DNA from: Cobetia sp. L2A1
GTDB taxonomy: Bacteria > Pseudomonadota > Gammaproteobacteria > Pseudomonadales > Halomonadaceae
Reading direction: 5' to 3'
Assembly (NCBI RefSeq): GCF_009796845.1
Contig: NZ_CP047025.1
Location: forward strand, 1,240,001 to 1,304,000
Length of the DNA stretch: 64,000 nucleotides
Shown piece after piece: positions 12,668 to 27,961 of the stretch (position 1 is the first letter of the stretch; each line of letters opens with the position of its first letter). A program made the translations under genes and the position numbers. The notes under the pieces were generated by a model that saw only the letters and a program-made list of their open reading frames with translations, did no database searches and was not told where the DNA came from.

Positions 12668-13462
12668 ATGAGCTATTCACGTCCGTTTGCAGCCGTTTTT
12701 TCTCCCTCTGTGCTCAAGGGTGCCGTGATGGCTGCCGCCTTGGGTGTGACTTCCATGAGCGCTCTGAGCGCCCAGGCCGACACTCTGAAGGTAGGTATGT
12801 CGGGCGGCTACTTCCCGTTCACCTTCGTCAAGCAGGACAAGCTGCAGGGCTTTGAGGTTGATGTTCTCAATGCTGTCGGCGAGATCACCGGTGATGACGT
12901 CGAATTCGTCACGATGAGCTTCTCGGGTCTGATCGGTGCACTGGAAGCGGGGCGTATCGACACCGTGGCCAATCAGATCACCATTACCGATGCGCGCAAG
13001 GAGAAATTCGCCTTCACTCAGCCATATGTCTACGACGGTGCGCAGGTCGTCAAGCGTCGTGGTAATGATGAGATTACCGGTGTCGAGTCTCTCAAGGGCC
13101 ACAGTGTGGCTGTGAATCTGGGCTCCAACTACGAGTCGCTGCTCAATGCGCTACCGTATGCTGACGAAATCACCATCAAGACATACGAGTCCAATCTCGA
13201 GCAAGACACTGCTCTGGGCCGTGTCGATGCCTTCGTGATGGACCGTGTGAGTGCCAGCCAGGTGATCCAGAAGACACCACTACCGCTTGAGCTTGCTGGC
13301 CAGCCGTTCTCCAAGATTGAAAATGCGCTGCCATTTCTCAATAACGCAGCAGGCAAGGCAAGCCGTGACAAGGTCGATGCTGCGCTGACCGAACTGAAAG
13401 ACAATGGTCGTCTGAGCGAGATCTCCAAGAAGTGGTTCGGTAGCGACATCACCACTCCCTGA
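12668..13462 (+). CDS. Amino acid ABC transporter substrate-binding protein (cystine-type)
   Basis: A 264-aa periplasmic protein with a long signal peptide ending near SALSAQA-DT. The mature part is a polar amino acid binding domain (SBP_bac_3): GGYFPFTF, KLQGFEVDVLNAVGEI, and NQITITDARKEKFAFTQPY. The ending KKWFGSDIT closely resembles E. coli FliY/TcyJ, the cystine binding protein, so cystine or a similar amino acid is the likely substrate. AGGAA precedes the ATG. Permease and ATPase genes follow in order. Confidence 0.9.
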   Translation: MSYSRPFAAVFSPSVLKGAVMAAALGVTSMSALSAQADTLKVGMSGGYFPFTFVKQDKLQGFEVDVLNAVGEITGDDVEFVTMSFSGLIGALEAGRIDTVANQITITDARKEKFAFTQPYVYDGAQVVKRRGNDEITGVESLKGHSVAVNLGSNYESLLNALPYADEITIKTYESNLEQDTALGRVDAFVMDRVSASQVIQKTPLPLELAGQPFSKIENALPFLNNAAGKASRDKVDAALTELKDNGRLSEISKKWFGSDITTP

Positions 13463-13540
13463 GTCGACAGCAGCATAGCCGGCTACCCGTAGTGTAGTGG
13501 CCAAGTCAGGGCGTTGTGGCAGGAGGCGGTGAGGTAAGGG

Positions 13541-13573
13541 CAACGGGGTGACGGCGCTATCGTCACCCCGTTG
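13541..13573. terminator. GC-rich hairpin between binding-protein and permease genes
   Basis: CAACGGGGTGACG (13541-13553) and its exact complement (13561-13573) form a 13-bp stem with a 7-nt loop. No T-tract follows, so it more likely stabilises the binding-protein mRNA or causes partial termination, giving more binding protein than permease. Confidence 0.65.
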
Positions 13574-13720
13574 TCGTCATGCATTGCTTTGATGATACCT
13601 CGCCCTCATGCATGGCCCTGATGCTTCGTCATCGGGTGCTACTGCCCTTGATGCATACCCCTTTGTTACGCCGAGGCCCTGGTGTCTCTCCTTCATATCC
13701 CCAGCCAGTTCGGATAACGA

Positions 13721-14395
13721 ATGGATACTCTCAATATTGATTACATGCTCGGTCTGCTGCCGATCATGCTCAAGTACCTGCCCCTGACGCTCAAGATGGC
13801 GAGCATCGGCATGGTTGCCGCGCTGATTCTTGCCTCCTTGCTGGCGGTGATACGGGTACTCAAGGTGCCGGTACTCAATGCGTTGACCATCGTGTTCATT
13901 TCCTTTTTCCGTGGTACGCCGCTGCTGGTGCAGTTATTCCTGTTTTATTACGGTCTGCCGCAGGTCATGTCATTCCTGGCACAGATTGATGGCGTCACCG
14001 CGACGATTCTTGGCCTGACGCTGCATTTCTCCGCGTACATGGCCGAGTCGATTCGCGCCGCTATCGTCGGGGTTGATCGCAGTCAGACCGAAGCAGCATT
14101 GTCGATCGGCATGACCAATCTGCAGTTGATGCGCCGTATCGTGCTGCCGCAGGCCGCGCGCGTGGCAGCCCCGACGTTGATGAACTACTTCGTGGACATG
14201 ATCAAATCCACGTCGCTGGCATTCACGCTCGGCGTCACGGAGCTAATGGGTGCGACCCAGAAAGAAGCGGCCAGTAGCTTCCTGTACTTTGAATCCTTCA
14301 TCATGGTGGCCATCGTCTACTGGGTGATGGTAGAGGGGCTGTCATTTGTGCAGCGCTGGATGGAGAAACGTCTCAACAAGGCCTATCAGCGATGA
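13721..14395 (+). CDS. Amino acid ABC transporter permease (cystine-type)
   Basis: A 224-aa inner membrane protein of the HisM/TcyL type with about five transmembrane segments. [19 protein letters not shown] and the EAA loop [24 protein letters not shown] contact the ATPase. It is 258 nt downstream of the binding protein and overlaps the ATPase gene by ATGA. It provides the channel for the importer. Confidence 0.93.
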
Positions 14396-15156
14396 TTGCA
14401 GTCAGAAAGCTGGTCAAGAAGTTTGGCGGTACCGCAGTCCTCGACGGCATTACCCTTGAGGTGGCGCAGGGCGAGATCATCGTCGTCATTGGTCCGTCCG
14501 GTACCGGAAAATCCACGTTGCTGCGCTGTATCAACTTCCTCGAGCAGCCCGATGGTGGTGAGATCCAGATTGGTGACGTGAAGGTTGATGCTACGCGCGC
14601 GACGCGCGCCGAGATTCTCGCGCTGCGTCGCAATAGTGCCTTCGTCTTCCAGAACTATGCGTTGTTTGCCAACAAGACGGCGCTTGAGAATATTTCTGAA
14701 GGTCTGATCGTCGTCAATGGTTGGTCGAAGGCCAAGGCGCATCAGCGGGCGCGTGAGATTCTTGAGCGTATTGGCATGAGCGAGAAGGCTGATGCCTATC
14801 CTGCGGCGTTATCAGGGGGCCAGCAGCAACGTATCGGCATCGGTCGCGCCATGGCAGCGCAGGCGGAGGTGATTCTGTTTGATGAGCCGACATCAGCACT
14901 GGACCCGGAATGGGTCGATGAAGTGCTGGAGTTGATGAAGCAATTGGCCGTTGAGCGACAGACCATGATTGTCGTCACCCATGAAATGCAGTTTGCGCGA
15001 GAAGTGGCAGATCGCGTCATCTTCATGGAAGGTGGGCGTATCGTTGAGCAGGGGCCGCCCAGTCAGCTATTTGGCGCGCCGAAGGATGACCGTACGCGTG
15101 CCTTCCTGCGCAAGGTGCTTAATGAAGTGCCGCCGCAGTGCGCTGAGGGTATCTAA
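14392..15156 (+). CDS. Amino acid ABC transporter ATP-binding protein (cystine-type)
   Basis: A 254-aa cytosolic ATPase of the GlnQ/TcyN type. Walker A is GPSGTGKS (about 33-40), the Q-loop lies in [18 protein letters not shown], the signature is LSGGQQQR and Walker B is [13 protein letters not shown], with the switch His in VVTHEMQFA. It overlaps the permease gene by 4 nt and closes the operon; a terminator follows. Confidence 0.95.
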
Positions 15157-15195
15157 CCTCGCGCCTGGACGAGGACGCAGTGCCTCACCCACCTC

Positions 15196-15228
15196 AATCG
15201 CCGCCCGGTGTTCACCAGGGCGGCGATT
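15196..15228 (+). terminator. Rho-independent terminator of the amino acid ABC operon
   Basis: AATCGCCGCCC (15196-15206) pairs with GGGCGGCGATT (15218-15228), with a GGTG/CACC inner pairing, followed by TCGTTTTC. It lies 40 nt past the ATPase stop codon. Confidence 0.85.
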
Positions 15229-15279
15229 TCGTTTTCATGAAAGATCATGTCGCGGCGTCACTCGATGCCTCGCCGGCTG

Positions 15280-15588
15280 CTAGCTGCGACGAGGCATTGA
15301 GTGCACCCTGGTAAAGGCATCCTCGAGGGCCAGCGTGACACGTTCTTCCAGCAACTCCTGCTCGGCAGGTGACATGTAGAAGACCATGTCGACATCGTGG
15401 CGGATATAGCGCGGCGCCAGCTGGTTGAGCGCAATGCAGGCCACATCCTCACGGCCATCACCATCCATGCCGATAGCCCCGGGGTGTAGTCGGAGCTGAT
15501 CAAGCACGAGCTGCTCCATGTAGTTGTGAACGCCTGCCGTGTGCATGCGCCCCGAGGGCTCTTGGCGAGTTGCGTGCTGTGCGTGCAT
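15280..15588 (-). CDS. ComFB-like late competence family protein
   Basis: A 102-aa protein. The core, from NYMEQLVLDQL through EDVACIALNQLAPRYI to VDMVFY, matches the ComFB domain (PF10719), whose role outside Bacillus competence is unknown; some members bind cyclic dinucleotides. The metal-binding cysteines found in many members before the DVxxxALN motif are absent here (GMDGDGREDV). I chose ATG 15588 because AAGGGG lies 7 nt before it; the open frame extends further upstream but looks non-coding there. Confidence 0.75.
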   Translation of the reverse strand: MHAQHATRQEPSGRMHTAGVHNYMEQLVLDQLRLHPGAIGMDGDGREDVACIALNQLAPRYIRHDVDMVFYMSPAEQELLEERVTLALEDAFTRVHSMPRRS

Positions 15589-20522: not shown

Positions 20523-21761
20523 TCATTCCTTCGGTGCAGGCGGCAGCGGTATATAGTCTGGCCAGTCGTCCGGTACGACAAATACACGCCACTGGTAATG
20601 AGTCGGCGGAGTGGTGGGGGCAGTGATGCCGATGGAAGTAGTAGAGGAGATAAGCTCAAGCCAAAGTTGGCGCGGGTGCGGTGGACGCGAGCTCTGAGAG
20701 TTCGTGGCGAAAAAGTGCTTGTGCAGCCAAGCATCCAGTTCTCGCCAAGAGACAAGAGAGGCTATCGGAGGCGCTGCTAGCCAAGCCGGTTTCTCTCTTA
20801 CTATCCCCTTTACCTGTGCCTGCTCAAGAGAAGAGCGGGGGGTGTCCAGCTCGCTCAGTACGAGACAGAATGCCGAAAAGTCACTCACGCGGACCCACCA
20901 CCCTGCCTGTAATGCAGTCTCGGGATGGCACCCTGTCGGTGGCGGTAGGCAGTCTGCCAGCGATTTTTCAGGCTGCCAGGGGCGAAATAGGCAGCCGGGT
21001 AGCGCCAGTTGCTGCCGAATACGTTCTCCGTCAGGTAAACCGTCCTGCTCTCCGTCGATGGCCTCAAGCGCAGACGTGATGGCGTCTCGCCCTTGTGGGG
21101 TGTGCGCTAGCGGCAATTGATGGCGCAGGCTGCGTTGATACTTGATCGCCAGGCTGTCAGCCCCTCCCGGCCCTATCCAGCGGCTGGGACTATCGATGGC
21201 TCCAGGCCCATCTGGGAGTCCCAGATAGAACTTGATCGCGACTTCCAGATGCGTCGGCGCATGGTGGTGTTCAGTTTGATAGATCAGATCCAGCTCGCCC
21301 AGCGTTATCCTCTCCTCCTCGATCTTCAGGTTACTGACCAGGAGTTGGCTACTCGGAGCGTGCCTAAGTACGAATTGCCAGAGCAACTCGTGATAGCGAC
21401 CCAGTCGATAGTGACAGCACTCATCAACGGTGGCTTCTAGTGTCTGTGGATGTTGTTCCAGTTGGGTTAACCACTGATGGCGCACGCCGTCATCTTCCAG
21501 TCCGAGTGTCTGCAGTGTGGGGCGAGGGTAGCCAGGTGTCAGCATCAGATCTGGTGAACCCAGTAGCCAGGCGATATCTCTGACCAGTGGATGGCAATAG
21601 GGTGCGCTCGGCGCTCGTAAGTCTGGCGTTGCCGCACAAGTTGAAGCTACCCACTGAGGAGTAGGGGCAGCGCTAGAGAGAGGAGAGCAGTGATGAGCAG
21701 TGCAGTGATGAGCATAGCTCTCAAGTGCTCCCTCTGGAGGCTTTGGAGGCAGAATAGGCAT
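20523..21761 (-). CDS. DUF1853 family protein
   Basis: A 412-aa protein. The DUF1853 core starts near HPLVRDIAWLLGSPDLM and contains the nuclease-like acidic patterns TLGELDLIYQ and HLEVAIKFYLGL followed by WIGPGGADSLAIKYQRSL. Together E/D...E-x-K recalls a PD-(D/E)XK fold, but activity is unproven. The first 50 residues are Ala/His/Pro-rich and unlike homologues, and the ribosome binding site at 21761 is weak, so the true start may lie further in. Confidence 0.8.
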   Translation of the reverse strand: MPILPPKPPEGALESYAHHCTAHHCSPLSSAAPTPQWVASTCAATPDLRAPSAPYCHPLVRDIAWLLGSPDLMLTPGYPRPTLQTLGLEDDGVRHQWLTQLEQHPQTLEATVDECCHYRLGRYHELLWQFVLRHAPSSQLLVSNLKIEEERITLGELDLIYQTEHHHAPTHLEVAIKFYLGLPDGPGAIDSPSRWIGPGGADSLAIKYQRSLRHQLPLAHTPQGRDAITSALEAIDGEQDGLPDGERIRQQLALPGCLFRPWQPEKSLADCLPPPTGCHPETALQAGWWVRVSDFSAFCLVLSELDTPRSSLEQAQVKGIVREKPAWLAAPPIASLVSWRELDAWLHKHFFATNSQSSRPPHPRQLWLELISSTTSIGITAPTTPPTHYQWRVFVVPDDWPDYIPLPPAPKE

Positions 21762-22423
21762 GCCACTCAGTGTATCCCAAGGCGCCTGACAAGGAATATG
21801 GCATCAAAAGAGTCAAGGACATTTGCGGATATCGACCGGAGATGGGCTGTAGTCGCGAGATGACAATGATCTCTATCAAATCCCCTATTGAAACATTGGA
21901 CTTACTGCGTAGCGTATTTGGCGGGCAGTATTCTGGCGCCATATGGTGATCTAGCGTTGTTTCTTTTATGGAACCTATGCGGTTTCTGTATTGAGGTATT
22001 TCTATCGGCCAGTGACGTTCAGGGTACGCTTCCTGCGAATTGCAGTGAATGCACCTCACTCGCAAGCCAAGGAAAAGGTAAATCAAGATCATCTGTGCAA
22101 GATGTTGTCAATTCCGCCATTTTCAGTGCTGATGAGAGAATGTCATGTTCTGGTAAGGCTGAGGGGCGTAAAACATCATCGCATCGGCAGGAGTGGTCGT
22201 ATGAATTATGACGGATGTACACGGCTTTTTACGGAAAAGCGCATGAAAGCTAGGCTGTAACAAGGTTTCCAAGGGAAAAATGCATTTTTTCCATTTCCTT
22301 GCATCCAGTTGTGACGATGCGACGTATTACTCATCAGAACATGAAGACACACGCTGCAGTACGCATAATGTTCGACCAAGGTGGTGAGTGAGGTGCAGTG
22401 ATTTACGCCGAAAGTCGATAGCT
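21762..22423. other. Region left of the first small secreted gene
   Basis: About 660 nt without a supported gene. From about 22,000 to 22,260 a plus frame and an antisense frame are both open, and both are also open in the copy at 25,300-25,600. Most differences between the copies change the encoded residues, so protein coding is not favoured. From about 22,310 the sequence becomes almost identical to copy B. Confidence 0.5.
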
Positions 22424-22451
22424 TGAGGAGCGGATGCTGACGGGTATATAG
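22424..22451 (+). promoter_or_regulatory. Candidate promoter of tandem block copy A
   Basis: TTGAGG (22424-22429), 16 nt, TATATA (22446-22451). The same arrangement is kept in copy B. It would give a 5' leader of about 340 nt. The call is weak because the spacer is short and no start site is known. Confidence 0.4.
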
Positions 22452-22593
22452 GAGTATCCACTAGCAAGAGGCAGGGGTCTTCTCACCCCCCATGGTTGTA
22501 CAAGAGTTGTCTTCAAGTGTTATTCAAGTTGTTCGGTATGCCAGATGGCATTACCAGGAAGACACAGAGCAGGCGCAGTACGGTTAGCAGGTG

Positions 22594-22612
22594 TGTTTCC
22601 CTATGGGAAACA
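22594..22612 (+). promoter_or_regulatory. Conserved leader hairpin, copy A
   Basis: TGTTTCCC and GGGAAACA with loop TAT. Copy B has the same stem with loop TCA, so the stem is kept while the loop has changed, as expected for a functional RNA hairpin. Confidence 0.6.
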
Positions 22613-22760
22613 GTGAGCTTCCAGCAGAATGACTGGTTAGAAAGCGGGTTAAAGATTAGTCTGTTAATAATTTAAGCACAGCAAGACCGCCAGAGCCTGA
22701 ATGATTCGACCCGGACAGGGGTTGGCAGCATCCAATCTTCACGCTAGGCACTCAACATCA

Positions 22761-22775
22761 GCGGAACATATCCGC
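22761..22775 (+). promoter_or_regulatory. Hairpin before the ribosome binding site, copy A
   Basis: GCGGA and TCCGC with loop ACATA, 9 nt before GGACCAGGAG. The stem is conserved in copy B (loop ATATA). It could modulate translation of the first small gene. Confidence 0.5.
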
Positions 22776-22797
22776 ATAAAGGACCAGGAGTCTTACC

Positions 22798-23139
22798 ATG
22801 AAAAATATGTCCCTCAACGCATTGATCGCCGCCGTCGTTCTCGCTGCTGCCAGCACTTCAGCGTTCGCGGCCGATGACAGCCCTGCAGCACAACGCGTGC
22901 AAGAGGCGCTGAGCAGTCAGCAGATCATCGGCCAGTCCCAGTCTGCTAGTACCCACCAGCAGACCTTTTCCGAAACAGGTATGAGTGTTGCCGCCGGACG
23001 TGTTGGGCAGTCTCTCAACATGCAGAGCATCAATGGCGATAGCACCGTGTCACTGACTACCACTCACTCGGCAGTCAATGATCAAGGTAAAAGCGTCGCT
23101 GCAACCCGTGTTCAGCAGGGCATCAGCGATAACGCGTGA
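22798..23139 (+). CDS. Small secreted repeat protein, paralogue 1A
   Basis: A 113-aa protein of no family I recognise. A clear signal peptide (MKNMSLNALIAAVVLAAAST...AFA) is followed by about 90 residues rich in Gln, Ser, Ala and Asn without cysteine. The motif (S)xAAxRVxxxL occurs three times, at SPAAQRVQEAL, SVAAGRVGQSL and SVAATRVQQGI, spaced about 35-36 residues. CCAGGAG precedes the ATG. It is the first gene of copy A; a second paralogue follows after 83 nt. The paralogue in copy B (26100) has the same length and nearly the same sequence. Confidence 0.85.
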   Translation: MKNMSLNALIAAVVLAAASTSAFAADDSPAAQRVQEALSSQQIIGQSQSASTHQQTFSETGMSVAAGRVGQSLNMQSINGDSTVSLTTTHSAVNDQGKSVAATRVQQGISDNA

Positions 23140-23222
23140 TTCGTGAGGGCGTGATCGTTTGCGCCAGATGAATCCAATGATGTGTCTGTTTGCTCACCTT
23201 TATCCAGTTTCGGAGAATGACC

Positions 23223-23552
23223 ATGAAAACGCTGAATACTCTGATTGCTGCCGCTGCCCTTTCTATCGCGGTTACCGGTGTTGCCTCTGCCGATAGCGTT
23301 GCCGACACCCAGGTGCGTGCGGCATTGAGTGAGCAAGCTATCCAAGGTCAGGCGCAGCCTGTCAGCACCCAGCAGATCGTTGTGGAAAGTGGCAAGAGTA
23401 TTGCTGCCAACCGTGTTGAGCAGTCTTTGCACGCTGACATGGTCAAGGGCGAGCGTCATCAGCGAGTGTCTCATGCTCAGAGCTTTGCTAATGATGCCGG
23501 GAAGAGTGTCTCTGCCACCCGCGTACAACATGCACTCGAGACAAGTGTTTAA
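23223..23552 (+). CDS. Small secreted repeat protein, paralogue 2A
   Basis: A 109-aa protein with a signal peptide ending near VASA-DSV and three copies of the family motif: SVADTQVRAAL, SIAANRVEQSL and SVSATRVQHAL. I chose ATG 23223 because GGAG lies 7 nt before it; the ATG at 23217 is too close. Its N-terminal two thirds match paralogue 2B (26525), but from EQSLHADMVKGE onward it matches paralogue 3 (26908). It therefore looks like a 2-3 fusion formed by recombination. Function unknown. Confidence 0.85.
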   Translation: MKTLNTLIAAAALSIAVTGVASADSVADTQVRAALSEQAIQGQAQPVSTQQIVVESGKSIAANRVEQSLHADMVKGERHQRVSHAQSFANDAGKSVSATRVQHALETSV

Positions 23553-23853
23553 TTGGCAGTGTCGGAATTTTCTGATGAGCTAATGTAAATAAATATCATA
23601 CAGTGCGATGAAGAATATTATCTAATGGTGAATGTCGGGTTTCCTTTGGGACCGATATCGCCAATGGATAAGCGGGTGAGTGGTAATGTCTGAGTAGATA
23701 GATTTTAATGTATTTTTATGGCGATAAAATATCACCTTGTCCTAGTAAGTTATTGATGTAGATGGCATTATGGTTCACGTAGTTTAAACGAAAGCTACAT
23801 GCTGATATTTCGCATGTAATACTATGAGCCAAGTCCAAACTGGAACTTCTGTA

Positions 23854-24624
23854 ATGCCAATCTTGAAATCATTGAAGACGTTGACGTGTTCATTAGTTAT
23901 CGCCGCAAGTCTTGTTTCTGGTCATGCCATGGCCAGCAACTCTCCTGATAAGCCCAAAGTGCTTATCTTTGATGTTAACGAAACGCTGCTTGATCTGACG
24001 TCCATGCGTAGCTCCGTGGGTGATGCATTGGGTGGCAGAGAAGATCTGCTCCCGTTGTGGTTCTCCACCATGTTGCATTATTCCCTGGTCGATACCGTGA
24101 CCAAGGATTATCACGATTTTGGTCAGATTGGTGTCGCTGCATTGCTCATTGTCGCCCAAAACAACGACATCGAACTCACGAGCGAGCAGGCCAAGAAGGC
24201 CATCATTACGCCATTGCTGACGCTACCGCCTCATGGTGATGTCAAGGAAGGCTTGGCGAAACTGAAGGCGCAGGGTTACAAGATCGTCAGTCTGACCAAC
24301 TCTTCTAACAAGGCTGTCAAAGCCCAGTTCGAAAGTGCTGGCTTGTTGTCATATTTTGATGAGCGTTACAGCATTGAAGACATCAAGATATATAAGCCTG
24401 ACCTGCGTTCTTATGAGTGGGTGCTTGAAAAGCTCAATGTAAAGCCTGAAGAAGCAATGATGGTAGCGGCACACGGTTGGGATGTCGCGGGTGCCAAAGA
24501 GGCTGGTTTGCAAACGACCTTCATTGCTCGTCCTGGCAAGGCGCTTTATCCGCTGGCCAAGCAGCCGGATCATGTCGTGAAAGATGTAAATGAATTGGCT
24601 GATATATTGGGCAAGAGCGAATGA
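23854..24624 (+). CDS. Secreted haloacid-dehalogenase-type (HAD) hydrolase
   Basis: A type II haloacid dehalogenase-like protein: catalytic Asp in IFDVNETLLDL, Ser/Thr motif SLTNSSNK, Lys in IYKPDLRSYEW and acidic motif AAHGWDVAGAKEAG. The start is unusual because a signal peptide (MPILKSLKTLT...GHAMA) precedes the domain, so it probably works in the periplasm, whereas most relatives are cytosolic. ATG 23854 gives a tidy signal peptide; ATG 23824 would add 10 residues. Codon use is more AT-rich than in most of the window. It lies between the small secreted genes and the block A terminator. Confidence 0.85.
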   Translation: MPILKSLKTLTCSLVIAASLVSGHAMASNSPDKPKVLIFDVNETLLDLTSMRSSVGDALGGREDLLPLWFSTMLHYSLVDTVTKDYHDFGQIGVAALLIVAQNNDIELTSEQAKKAIITPLLTLPPHGDVKEGLAKLKAQGYKIVSLTNSSNKAVKAQFESAGLLSYFDERYSIEDIKIYKPDLRSYEWVLEKLNVKPEEAMMVAAHGWDVAGAKEAGLQTTFIARPGKALYPLAKQPDHVVKDVNELADILGKSE

Positions 24625-25270
24625 TCGCCGCTTACAATAGGGTTGTATTCGGTCATTGATCAAGACATATCAACAAGTGAGATGTCAGTCTCTGCATGGT
24701 GATGTGTCGCTGCCCTCGGGTGTCTTGAGAGTCAGGCGGCCGGGGGCAGTGAGGGTTGGCTTCGCTTTTGCAGTAGTCGTGTGAACATTGAGTGGTAGGT
24801 ACGTGACGTAGCATGAGCGCGAAGCAGCGCATGGAGGAAAGATACCTTCCTGCCTGCAATCTTCATGAAGGCTTGCGGTGTTTGATCCTTTCCCTCGTCA
24901 GTAGGATATTCACGCAAGGGCGTTGTACTCATGATGTTTCATGCGAGTCCGATATACCGGCCTCTTTCTTGAGTGTTTTCCTGTCCTGGATGTCACTGTC
25001 CCGACATTCATTGCCCGCCACTGGCGGGTTTTTTTATGCCTGCCAATCCAGTGTTATCAAGCAAGTCTGCTGTCACCCATCGATGATCAGCACTGCTGAA
25101 GACTTGAACATTCGCCGTATCTAGCGTGCCGTTGGTGGCATTTTGATGTGGAAAAAGCGTGTTTAATTTGATCCATGTCATTTAACTCATTGAAAAGCAT
25201 TGAGTTTAGTATGCGCAAGGATGGTCGATAAAGCTAAATTAGCATTAATTTATATATCATTGATTCATGG
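24625..25270. other. Spacer with the end of tandem block copy A
   Basis: No gene is supported. It contains the 46-nt repeat with terminator (24977-25035). The remainder shows no recognised structure and becomes AT-rich towards copy B. Confidence 0.45.
24977..25035 (+). terminator. Rho-independent terminator within a 46-nt repeat, copy A
   Basis: The 46 nt at 24977-25022 recur exactly at 27814-27859. The repeat ends in the first arm of a terminator, CCCGCC-ACT-GGCGGG (25014-25028), followed by T7. It closes copy A after the HAD gene. Confidence 0.88.
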
Positions 25271-25725
25271 TTGGAACCAATACTGTTCCTGTTTGGGGAT
25301 GTTTCTACCGGACGGTGACATTCACAATACACTCCCTATGGATTGCAGTGAATGCACTTCACTCACCCGCAAGGAATGCAGTGAATCGTAAACATCTGTG
25401 CAATACGTTGTCAATGCCGACATTTTCAGTGTTGGCGAGAGAATGTCATGTTCTGGTGTGGCTGAGGGGCATGAAACATCATCGCATCGGCAGGAATGGT
25501 TGTATGAATCATGACGGATATTCACAATTTTTTGCTGTAAGGCGCATGGATGTTGGGATGAAAATAGGTTTCAAGGAAAAATACGCATTTTTTCGATTTC
25601 ATGGCATCCAGTTGTGACAATGCGGCGTATTACTCATCAGAACATGAAGACACACGCTGCAGGCCGCATCATGTTCGACCAAGGTGGTGAGTGAGGTACA
25701 GTGATTTACGCCGAAAGTCGATAGC
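25271..25725. other. Left part of tandem block copy B
   Basis: The counterpart of 21,970-22,423. A 116-codon plus frame starting at 25267 and a 67-codon antisense frame are open here; they correspond to open frames in copy A but with mostly non-synonymous differences. I do not call them genes. The stretch 25,610-25,725 is nearly identical to copy A. Confidence 0.45.
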
Positions 25726-25753
25726 TTGAGGAGCGGATGCTACCTGGCATATA
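25726..25753 (+). promoter_or_regulatory. Candidate promoter of tandem block copy B
   Basis: TTGAGG (25726-25731), 16 nt, CATATA (25748-25753), at the same place as in copy A. Weak on its own; conservation is the main support. Confidence 0.35.
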
Positions 25754-25895
25754 GGAGTATCCACTCGCAAGAGGCAGGGATCTTCTCACTCACAATGTTG
25801 TACAAGAGTTGTCTGTAAGTGTCCTTTAAGTTGTCATGCATGCCGGGTGGCATTGCCAAGAAGACGTAGAGCAGGCACAGCACGGCTTGCAGTTT

Positions 25896-25914
25896 TGTTT
25901 CCCTCAGGGAAACA
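25896..25914 (+). promoter_or_regulatory. Conserved leader hairpin, copy B
   Basis: TGTTTCCC and GGGAAACA with loop TCA; the stem is identical to copy A and the loop differs. Confidence 0.6.
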
Positions 25915-26062
25915 GTGAGCTTCCAGCAGGATGGCTAGTTAGAAAGCGGATTAAAGATTAGTCTGTTAACAATCGAAGTGCAGCAAGACCGCTAGAGCCT
26001 GAATGATTAGACCCGGACAGGGGTTGGCAGCATCCGATCTTCACTCTAGGCACTCAATATCA

Positions 26063-26077
26063 GCGGAATATATCCGC
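26063..26077 (+). promoter_or_regulatory. Hairpin before the ribosome binding site, copy B
   Basis: GCGGA and TCCGC with loop ATATA, in the same position relative to the ATG as in copy A. Confidence 0.5.
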
Positions 26078-26099
26078 ATAAAGGACCAGGAGTCTTACC

Positions 26100-26441
26100 A
26101 TGAAAAATATGTCCCTCAACGCATTGATCGCCACCGTTGTTCTCGCTGCTGCCAGTACTTCAGCATTCGCGGCCGATGACAGCCCTGCGGCACAACGCGT
26201 GCAAGAGGCACTGAGCAGTCAGCAGATCATCGGCCAGTCCCAGCCTGCGACTACCCACCAGCAGTCCTTTTCCGAAACAGGTATGAGTGTTGCCGCCGGA
26301 CGTGTTGAGCAGTCTCTCAACATGCAGAGCATCAATGGCGATAGCACCGTGTCACTGACTGCCACTCACTCGGCAGTCAATGATCAAGGTAAAAGCGTTG
26401 CTGCAACCCGTGTTCAGCAGGGCATCAGCGATAACGCGTGA
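26100..26441 (+). CDS. Small secreted repeat protein, paralogue 1B
   Basis: A 113-aa near-duplicate of the protein at 22798, with about seven substitutions, most in the stretch between the first and second motif. Signal peptide, three SxAAxRVxxxL motifs and ribosome binding site are unchanged. Motif 2 reads SVAAGRVEQSL, which fits the family better than the SVAAGRVGQSL of 1A. The even spread of silent and mild changes suggests both copies are under selection. Function unknown. Confidence 0.85.
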   Translation: MKNMSLNALIATVVLAAASTSAFAADDSPAAQRVQEALSSQQIIGQSQPATTHQQSFSETGMSVAAGRVEQSLNMQSINGDSTVSLTATHSAVNDQGKSVAATRVQQGISDNA

Positions 26442-26524
26442 TTCGTGAGGGCGTGATCATTTGCGTCAGATGAATCCAATGATGTGTCTGTTTACCTACT
26501 TTTATCCAGTTTCGGAGAATGACC

Positions 26525-26854
26525 ATGAAAACCCTGAATACCTTGATTGCTGCCACTGCCCTTTCTATCGCCGTTACCGGTGTTGCCTCTGCCGATAGCG
26601 TTGCCGACACCCAGGTGCGTGCAGCATTGAGCGAGCAAGCTATCCAAGGTCAGGCACAGCCTGCCAGCACCCAGCAGATCGTTGTGGAAAGTGGCAAGAG
26701 TATTGCTGCCAATCGTGTTGAGAGGTCTTTGAACGCTGACATGGTCAAGGGCGAGCATATGAATACCGACTCCACTTCCCAGGCCTTGGCTAACGACAAG
26801 GGCAAGAGTGTTGCAGCAACTCGCTTTGAAGCTGCGCTCAACGACAACGCCTGA
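26525..26854 (+). CDS. Small secreted repeat protein, paralogue 2B
   Basis: A 109-aa protein with signal peptide (cleavage near VASA-DSV) and motifs SVADTQVRAAL, SIAANRVERSL and SVAATRFEAAL. It begins 83 nt after paralogue 1B, as in copy A. The first two thirds match 2A almost exactly; the C-terminal third (HMNTDSTSQALANDKGKSVAA) is its own. ATG 26525 is chosen over 26519 because of the GGAG spacing. Function unknown. Confidence 0.85.
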   Translation: MKTLNTLIAATALSIAVTGVASADSVADTQVRAALSEQAIQGQAQPASTQQIVVESGKSIAANRVERSLNADMVKGEHMNTDSTSQALANDKGKSVAATRFEAALNDNA

Positions 26855-26907
26855 TACCAGTCGACATGATTGAACAATGCAAGATCCTGATTCCTTGGAG
26901 ATACCTC

Positions 26908-27240
26908 ATGAAACTTATCAATACCCTGATTGCTACCGCTGCTCTTTCCATCGCTGCCACTGGCATTGCTTCTGCCGATAGCGTGGCAGATCAGCAAGTT
27001 CGCGCCAATATCAGCGAAAGCATGATTCAGGGCCAGGCCCAGTCTGCGGCTTCATACCAGCAGACTCCCAGCGAGTCAGGCAAGAGTGTCGCGGCAAGCC
27101 GTGTCGAGCAGTCATTGCATGCCGACATGATCAAGGGTGAGAGCCGTCAACTGGCGTCTGATTCTCAAGACTTCGACAATGACGCTGGCAAGAGTGTGTC
27201 TGCAACACGCATCCAGCACGCCCTGAGCGAAAGCGTCTGA
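26908..27240 (+). CDS. Small secreted repeat protein, paralogue 3
   Basis: A 110-aa paralogue 53 nt after 2B. The signal peptide ends near IASA-DSV and the motifs are SVADQQVRANI, SVAASRVEQSL and SVSATRIQHAL. TTGGAGATACCTC before ATG 26908 decides the start; the longer frame from 26866 lacks one. Its C-terminal third is the one also found in 2A. It completes a three-gene set (1B-2B-3) that probably is one operon, since no terminator lies between them. Confidence 0.85.
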   Translation: MKLINTLIATAALSIAATGIASADSVADQQVRANISESMIQGQAQSAASYQQTPSESGKSVAASRVEQSLHADMIKGESRQLASDSQDFDNDAGKSVSATRIQHALSESV

Positions 27241-27813
27241 AGCAAGTCTGGCTGAAGAGGGCATCGACTTGAAGAGTGCGCAGAGTTTCCGTTGAGCGTC
27301 TGATAGTCCGTGATCCCGGTGCTCGTGACTTCAAGTGCAAGAGTCAGTGCGAAGTAGTCGATACAAGAAAGTAGTTACCGCCTCAAGAGCCTTACCAGTT
27401 GACACAGAAAAGGAAGCTGCCCGATGTGCAAGCCCGGAATCCTGTCAGTCGTAAGTCGCTTGATTTGACCACCGTATCGTTCTCGGTGGTCACTCTAGAG
27501 ATCCCTGTTCGCTGCTGCTTCAGCCGCCAACGTCATCCCCAGTGCTCCTCCATCATTTCTGCTTCAATGGCTGATTCTCCCAAACCCCATCTTTGAATGG
27601 CGTTGTCTCGCCAATATCCCGCTATCACACAACCAAACAATGTCAGCGTTGCTGGCCCACAATGCACATGACGCGAGTGATATGACATCAGTGGCTTCAA
27701 TCGCGACAAGGTCGCAACAGGATATCTGTTTGGAATGGGTAGAACGTTTCAGAAAGTCATTTTTTTTGCATTACCAAGCTGTGGTGAATGCGAAAGACGC
27801 TTTTCTGAAACGC
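27241..27813. other. Spacer with no supported gene, end of tandem block B
   Basis: About 570 nt. An 11-bp inverted repeat, CGTTTCAGAAA (27745-27755) with TTTCTGAAACG (27802-27812), lies just before the 46-nt repeat. Short open frames here have no recognisable product. Confidence 0.45.
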
Positions 27814-27876
27814 TTTCCTGTCCTGGATGTCACTGTCCCGACATTCATTGCCCGCCACTTGTTGGTGGGTTTTTTT
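27814..27876 (+). terminator. Rho-independent terminator within a 46-nt repeat, copy B
   Basis: The 46 nt 27814-27859 are identical to 24977-25022. The hairpin CCCGCCA (27851-27857) with TGGTGGG (27863-27869), loop CTTGT, is followed by T7. It ends the 1B-2B-3 unit. The loop differs from copy A. Confidence 0.88.
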
Positions 27877-27961
27877 ATTTCAATTTGGTAAGCGGGTGGC
27901 ATCCGTCAGCGTCAGTGATACGCTTGGCAGCGAAAATAATCACCTTCGGCAGGAGTTTATG

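Follow-up and report, generated by a model that had tools for sequence, protein, structure and literature searches.

The arrays of small genes described here were first noticed in a 64,000-nucleotide (nt) stretch of the Cobetia sp. L2A1 genome (4.12 Mb, single contig; NZ_CP047025.1, positions 1,240,001 to 1,304,000), hereafter the window, from whose first letter unprefixed coordinates are counted. As far as these searches go, they encode a real, clean and unnamed protein family that appears to have its own conserved cis elements. Its members have signal-like N-termini and a cysteine-free chain carrying three copies of a motif, and their sequences bear the mark of purifying selection, while common elements lie 5' and 3' of the arrays. 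What is new at the DNA level is a conserved 5' promoter-like block together with an ~80-nt 3' hairpin-terminator element. We consider it quite possible, though short of probable, that the arrays are cassettes for a high-dose exported Cobetia protein with a common 5' switch and RNA feedback from the 3' end. The subject is an orphan secreted family present in all six Cobetia genomes searched, for which no curated family or structure was found; the genus includes C. marina, a species described as a model for marine biofouling. If the 3' RNA controls the arrays in trans, a gene family could amplify yet stay at a set dose, and tandem duplication would be linked to feedback by a small RNA (sRNA).

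The five window paralogs of 109-113 amino acids (aa) were found as open reading frames (ORFs) where the preliminary description had placed them, all on the forward strand. Paralog 1 (113 aa, 22798-23139) is the first gene of block 1, with a Shine-Dalgarno (SD) sequence aggag 8-12 nt 5' of its ATG, and is followed by paralog 2 (109 aa, 23223-23552). Block 2 comprises paralog 3 (113 aa, 26100-26441), its first gene and 95% identical to paralog 1, paralog 4 (109 aa, 26525-26854) and paralog 5 (110 aa, 26908-27240). The assignments rest on ORF and alignment; in three of the five, the longest ORF begins 5' of the ATG adopted here. The family is larger than the five copies first counted, with ten in the genome: five in the window, three at 2342246-2343448 and two at 2330707-2331447. 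The proposed tandem duplication is real, since the segments 21969-23454 and 25272-26756 (both forward) share 89% identity across 1488 nt, far above chance, but its unit is a leader of ~830 nt, the whole of gene 1 and the greater part of gene 2. Outside this unit lie the gene at 26908 and the intervening gene of a HAD (haloacid dehalogenase type II) hydrolase. The terminator assigned to the duplicated block is instead a separately repeated conserved element (24962-25036 and 27799-27876), and the leader, said to match in all five copies, is present only 5' of the first gene in each block. Because the duplication ends within gene 2, the gene at 23223 is a chimera, sharing its N-terminal part with the 26525 type (96%) and differing in its C-terminal part (53%), which is of the last-gene type and nearest to a C. 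crustatorum copy (87%). Gene C25:100559 of C. crustatorum is chimeric in the same manner.

Each window paralog starts with a Sec-type signal (MK, a hydrophobic stretch and AxA), as judged by inspection and not by a prediction program. From residue 25 on, the chains of the family consist of 17.5% Ala, 13.1% Ser and 10.9% Gln, and none of the 53 members found (see below) has a cysteine there, in agreement with the cysteine-free, Gln/Ser/Ala-rich character first noted; the computed isoelectric point is below 6 in eight of the ten copies of the window's genome. The designation as a family of small secreted repeat proteins without a known domain is borne out, internal repeats included: the mature chain contains a 16-residue motif three times, roughly [DG]xS-V-A-[AD]-x-R-V-[QER]-x-[AS]-L-[SN]-[DE]-x, taken as windows from all 53 members. 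The first and second motifs are spaced by 35-36 residues in 39 of the 53 members, by 34 in six and by 39 in eight, and the second and third by 35-36 residues in 50. Mean BLOSUM62 sums for the motif pairs (20.2, 36.9 and 24.9) all exceeded the maxima of column-permuted controls (10.9, 16.9 and 13.2; 500 permutations each). Judged by eye, motif 1 follows directly on the signal peptide, and the chain stops just past motif 3. The structure prediction that had been suggested was run for a single chain (AlphaFold2, 40 sequences) but proved too uncertain to inform function, with a mean predicted local distance difference test score (pLDDT) of 52.8 and a predicted template modelling score (pTM) of 0.16. 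The helices of this low-confidence model (26-37, 60-77 and 96-107) coincide with the three motifs, and a further helix lies in the signal region. The model is compatible with, and not proof of, short helices in a flexible chain, which is probably what the protein is. The helical hydrophobic moment of the motifs (0.32-0.35) barely exceeds that of shuffled sequences (0.28-0.29), so that the motifs are not strongly amphipathic.

The ratio of nonsynonymous to synonymous substitution rates (dN/dS) was 0.05-0.39 in all 15 pairs compared, two of them with saturated dS (>3); it was 0.25 for paralog 1 against the 26100 gene and 0.11 for paralog 4 against its C. crustatorum counterpart. Such ratios indicate that the proteins are produced and retained. 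Length and start are similar across the 53 members, and the codon adaptation index (CAI) of the ten copies is moderately high, at 0.60-0.75 against a mean of 0.554 (standard deviation 0.099) for 46 window genes.

In the profile searches that the preliminary description had called for, no characterised family matched above cut-off. There was no hit above cut-off in Pfam (five window paralogs and 29 members), NCBIfam (five paralogs), PHROGs (three paralogs) or PADLOC (five members), and a 29-member profile gave no match in the PDB at E<=1. Three sub-threshold candidates were rejected: DUF4148 (PF13663; best E 0.13 in one of the 29 members, with paralog 1 at 8.3 bits where the gathering score is 27), VirK (PF06903; 17.4 bits, E 0.0046, for paralog 1 against 23.7, with two of the 29 members matching at E<=1) and DUF1471 in the form of YbiJ (NF007611; 15.6 and 15.4 bits in two of the five paralogs against 110). 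The last match is limited to residues 1-32 of the signal region. UniRef names some Cobetia members 'DUF4148 domain-containing'.

All six Cobetia genomes carry the family, with 8-10 copies each and 53 members in total, and the 32 other relatives searched alongside them had none at E<=1e-3. Across 275 genomes of the bacterial family, nine matched at E<=0.01, namely the six Cobetia and three weak ones (G201, G202 and G272; E 3.5e-4 to 0.0098). The weak matches were inspected and all discarded, being an unrelated frame that contains cysteines, a match through a signal-like start only and a match within a 1985-aa frame; no credible member was found in the 269 non-Cobetia genomes. An order-level search of 390 genomes, a sample apparently containing no other Cobetia, returned the window's own genome as the sole match. 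At least 41 proteins matched at E<=0.01 in a search of 5.8 billion sequences in which the best 8000 candidates were scored. Among the matches listed, the named relatives are from Cobetia, plus one 'Halomonas sp. SF2003' and one gammaproteobacterial metagenome-assembled genome; the remainder consists of metagenome sequences without a name and of the window's own proteins. A few matches are fragments, and one (P0039), a 201-aa protein covered to 55%, contains another Pfam domain. An origin from mobile elements was rejected: plasmids and phages yielded nothing for the one paralog used as query, nor did viral contigs for the 29-member alignment. On the evidence of these searches, the family appears confined to the genus Cobetia. 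It did not appear among the publications listed for Cobetia hypothetical or secreted proteins, proteome, biofilm and small RNA, which leaves its absence from the literature unproven.

The arrays appear to have been reshaped within the genus. C. crustatorum has the same two-block layout as the window, and in the other four Cobetia species the corresponding estB-side array is a single block. The window blocks are 89% alike and only 75-77% identical to the same-position C. crustatorum blocks (68-77% over all pairings), which points to gene conversion or to renewed or repeated duplication; either process would fit as what shapes the arrays. In another Cobetia species, four near-identical tandem copies with a 406-nt period (L031:5785-7413, reverse strand) suggest a very recent amplification or conversion. 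The dosage dependence initially suspected gains indirect support only, from the 8-10 copies in every genome, the CAI above the local mean, the likeness of the window blocks and this four-copy array; the matrix, adhesin or stress-protective role raised along with it is a putative one.

A block of ~65-78 nt resembling a promoter or operator, GGAAACAGTGAGCTkCCAG...GGCTAGT...ATTAGTCTGTTAAT, precedes the first gene in both main array classes, the estB-side arrays and the second arrays. In the window it lies at 22595-22672 (core GAAACAGTGAGCTNCC at 22607-22622; 14-row alignment) and, as a second copy, at 25897-25974 (core 25909-25924), both on the forward strand. The core starts at -189 to -192 in estB-side arrays and at -136 to -140 in second arrays. 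The exact 16-nt core occurs 13 times in the six genomes, always before arrays and nowhere else; a version with two mismatches precedes one C. crustatorum array. A consensus scan of the conserved block found no sigma-70 promoter. Between this block and the gene, the 5' untranslated region (5'UTR) contains a hairpin, GACCC-GGACAG-GGGT(T), at 22708-22722 (copy 2 at 26010-26024; both forward), whose loop is complementary to CCUGUCC of the 3' element. Farther upstream, a distal leader element (22275-22421; copy 2 at 25576-25723) is conserved before the estB-side array in all six genomes and was found only there; it may work for the divergent gene upstream (20523-21761), or it may act as a second site of control.

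At the other end of the arrays, the ~80-nt 3' element gave 16 strong covariance-model matches in the six genomes (E<1e-13), all on the sense strand and downstream of a cluster, so that 16 of 18 clusters have one. Fifteen copies had first been found by a plain DNA search with one copy and were used to build the model (R1), and only the sixteenth, behind the third array, is therefore an independent find of the model. Each element lies ~0.2-1.5 kb from the last paralog by coordinate subtraction. Element 1 of the window (24962-25036, forward) consists of a single-stranded CCUGUCCUG, a hairpin with loop ACUGUCCC and an intrinsic terminator, with a folding z-score of -3.81; the value is -2.81 for element 2 (27799-27876, forward) and ranges from -2.3 to -3.8 over the four copies folded. 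The unpaired CCTGTCCTG is about as conserved as the stems. All cells of hairpin 1 pair, partly via G-U changes, and 18-19 of 500 shuffles reach its percentage paired and its covariation score. At gathering score, Rfam recognises one tRNA only in the whole window, and membership in anti-hemB (RF02837) was rejected, since element 2 scores 25 bits (E 0.0063-0.019) and element 1 15.9 against a gathering score of 49.5. Outside Cobetia, a first search gave nine matches in seven of 23 genomes, eight of them to the terminator hairpin only and one (G031) to positions 21-46. The covariance model matched in 16 of 32 genomes (E 0.0019-0.095), more than the nominal E-values predict; these matches, not inspected individually, are taken to be ordinary terminators that fit the model. 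Two off-array Cobetia matches (G002 548446 and G005 2084695; E 0.02-0.07) were treated as chance. In most copies, a second conserved and partly self-complementary stretch, AGAACGCTTGAGCAAGTGTTTTG, stands upstream of the element (alignment A4); it is possibly an attenuator or part of a longer RNA.

We propose that the arrays would act as self-contained expression cassettes for a Cobetia-specific exported protein. Dose would be set by array expansion and gene conversion, and the main arrays would be switched on together via the common promoter-like block. An RNA released from the 3' end of the array transcript would then restrain the dose after transcription in the manner of OppZ/CarZ, its UCC-rich single-stranded CCUGUCCUG pairing with GGACA sites that lie in the 5'UTRs of the arrays, either at the ribosome-binding site or 5' of it. 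The extension of this scheme to a shared sRNA family, in which one member at the 3' end of each main array represses all arrays and keeps output steady despite copy gain, is distinctly speculative, and we think it unlikely. As for the protein, we infer Sec export and bulk use in the envelope or extracellular matrix, as a multivalent and largely flexible component in which the three short helices per chain may act as 'stickers'.

In the predicted pairing, two parts of the 3' element, its unpaired CCUGUCCUG and its loop CUGUCCC, are complementary to GGACA sites in the array 5'UTRs. All eight estB-side arrays have a GGACAGG site (in one, the G-U compatible GGGCAGG) in the hairpin loop at about -85, with scores of 20-21 in seven arrays and 19 in one. 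All six second arrays have CAGGACA at -23/-24 beside the SD, where the third array has CGGGACAG. In a duplex-energy test, 1 to 4 of 37 controls were as good in 14 of 16 arrays, and 9 and 22 in the other two. The best matches of the six inner genes of the window-genome arrays are only 4-6 nt long. Given the control and shuffle statistics, complementarity was rejected as proof of feedback and kept as a hint, the evidence for base pairing being no more than suggestive. A gene for a LacI-type regulator (L029:2579-3694, reverse strand) lies directly downstream of the 3' element of the third array, and its 5' region has the longest complementarity to the element motif among the 56 controls (12 nt with G-U); this gene is a possible trans target of the element.

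Several observations weigh against this scheme. Sites as good as or better than those of the second and third arrays were found in 1 to 4 of the 56 control genes, and the near-SD sites in estB-side arrays are equalled or surpassed by 8 to 19; at -85, three of the 56 attain a score of 20 and two a score of 21. Shuffled motifs gave p 0.05-0.19 in the six arrays tested, and duplex energies against shuffled UTRs gave p 0.013-0.82. The G001 singleton has a 3' element, yet 22 of 37 controls pair as well. The arrays, moreover, represent few independent lineages. The conserved elements are themselves not universal: none of the three singletons has the exact core in front of it, nor do the third array and one C. 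crustatorum array, and two singleton loci have no 3' element. Element 1 stands past the HAD gene, ~1.4 kb from the last paralog. The element of the third array has a loop other than CUGUCCC, and in one C. crustatorum copy the loop carries a one-base change. Covariation is modest, with two of 15 pairs changing on both sides, a number reached by 70 of 500 shuffles. Finally, as far as sequence can tell, nothing specific favours the matrix over the periplasm.

On this last point, an alternative with export, dose and regulation as in our preferred reading places the proteins in the periplasm as protectants against salt, oxidation or misfolding, not in an extracellular matrix, by analogy with the multi-paralog DUF1471/BhsA or DUF4148 proteins of other bacteria. 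We regard this as possible, if somewhat unlikely. The Sec-type signal seen by inspection, the mostly acidic chain and the many paralogs would suit it, as would a singleton near a catalase gene in three genomes (by Pfam in one and by similarity in two) and the precedent of the multi-paralog DUF4148 proteins of B. pseudomallei, one of them surface-associated according to the available text of PMC7549894. However, no homology to DUF1471 or DUF4148 rises above cut-off, and besides catalase the ten neighbour proteins scanned suggest no stress operon. The same ten include no csg or fap (functional amyloid) gene, although no search aimed at these was made.

The main rival to sRNA feedback concerns the RNA itself: the 3' element would be a terminator and mRNA-stabilising hairpin only, and the arrays would be controlled by CsrA/RsmA at GGA motifs in the 5'UTR. 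Two to three GGA motifs lie in the last 35 nt before 15 of the 16 first genes of arrays (one in the other), whereas 37 control genes average 0.68, five of them having two and none three. A GGA stands in the 5'UTR hairpin loop in seven of eight estB-side leaders by sequence and in all three folded, and the genome has one CsrA gene; the second-array leaders have a GGA beside the SD, which in the two that were folded does not lie in a loop. Such control nevertheless leaves unexplained why conservation of the unpaired segment in the 3' element is close to that of the stems, and why the element follows these arrays at all. We judge it unlikely, though a serious contender.

Secreted antagonistic peptides or precursors of bacteriocin-like type, expanded in an arms race, would also be small and apparently secreted products of recombining arrays with chimeric genes. 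This origin is very improbable, since selection is purifying overall and not diversifying, no bacteriocin family scored above cut-off, and the ten neighbour proteins scanned, a subset of all, included no recognisable immunity or processing gene, although an ATP-binding cassette ATPase of oligopeptide type adjoins the second array. The possibility, named as a refutation in the preliminary description, that the frames go untranslated, as chance or antisense ORFs would, found no supporting point and is virtually untenable, being refuted as far as sequence can by dN/dS well below 1 in every pair, the SD sites and the similar length and start.

Other genes accompany the arrays. The HAD gene between the window blocks (23824-24624, forward; TIGR01428, 183.3 bits against a cut-off of 125.4) has a signal-like N-terminus, is not a family member, and belongs to block 1 with no counterpart in block 2. 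It adjoins the array in other Cobetia genomes too, lying 5' of the 3' element in G001 and 3' of it in G002. An exported HAD of this kind would seem unusual. The second array is flanked by genes for an ADP-ribosylglycohydrolase and an oligopeptide-type ATP-binding cassette (ABC) ATPase (L029:17818-19092 and 13387-15366), and related genes lie beside arrays in other Cobetia genomes.

Among known systems, the DUF1471 proteins (BhsA/McbA/YbiJ) are envelope stress proteins of Enterobacteria that are small, exported, multi-paralog and lineage-restricted. The Cobetia family, its export being predicted, resembles them in all four respects, but the signal peptide region is the sole match. On the RNA side, CcsR-type sRNAs carry a UCC-rich motif. 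The 3' element is like anti-hemB (RF02837) and CcsR-type sRNAs in having a UCC-rich single strand and loop followed by a terminator. There is also a likeness in size and number to the small exported DUF4148 proteins of Burkholderiales: in the available text of PMC7549894, B. pseudomallei has eight such proteins of 90-113 aa with signal peptides, one of them surface-associated, and three Burkholderia species have 5-11 per genome. Small size, signal peptide and several copies per genome are shared, whereas the hidden Markov model (HMM) score is far under cut-off, and the tri-repeat architecture is not described for DUF4148 in that text. For the proposed feedback, the model is OppZ/CarZ of Vibrio, autoregulatory sRNAs derived from 3'UTRs (PMC7398697, available portion). 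Like them, the Cobetia arrays have a structured RNA element with an intrinsic terminator downstream of the operon, its place on the array transcript being putative, and a predicted pairing with their own 5'UTR. Unlike what that portion gives for OppZ/CarZ, related Cobetia elements follow several paralogous arrays, so that each predicted RNA could act on all of them.

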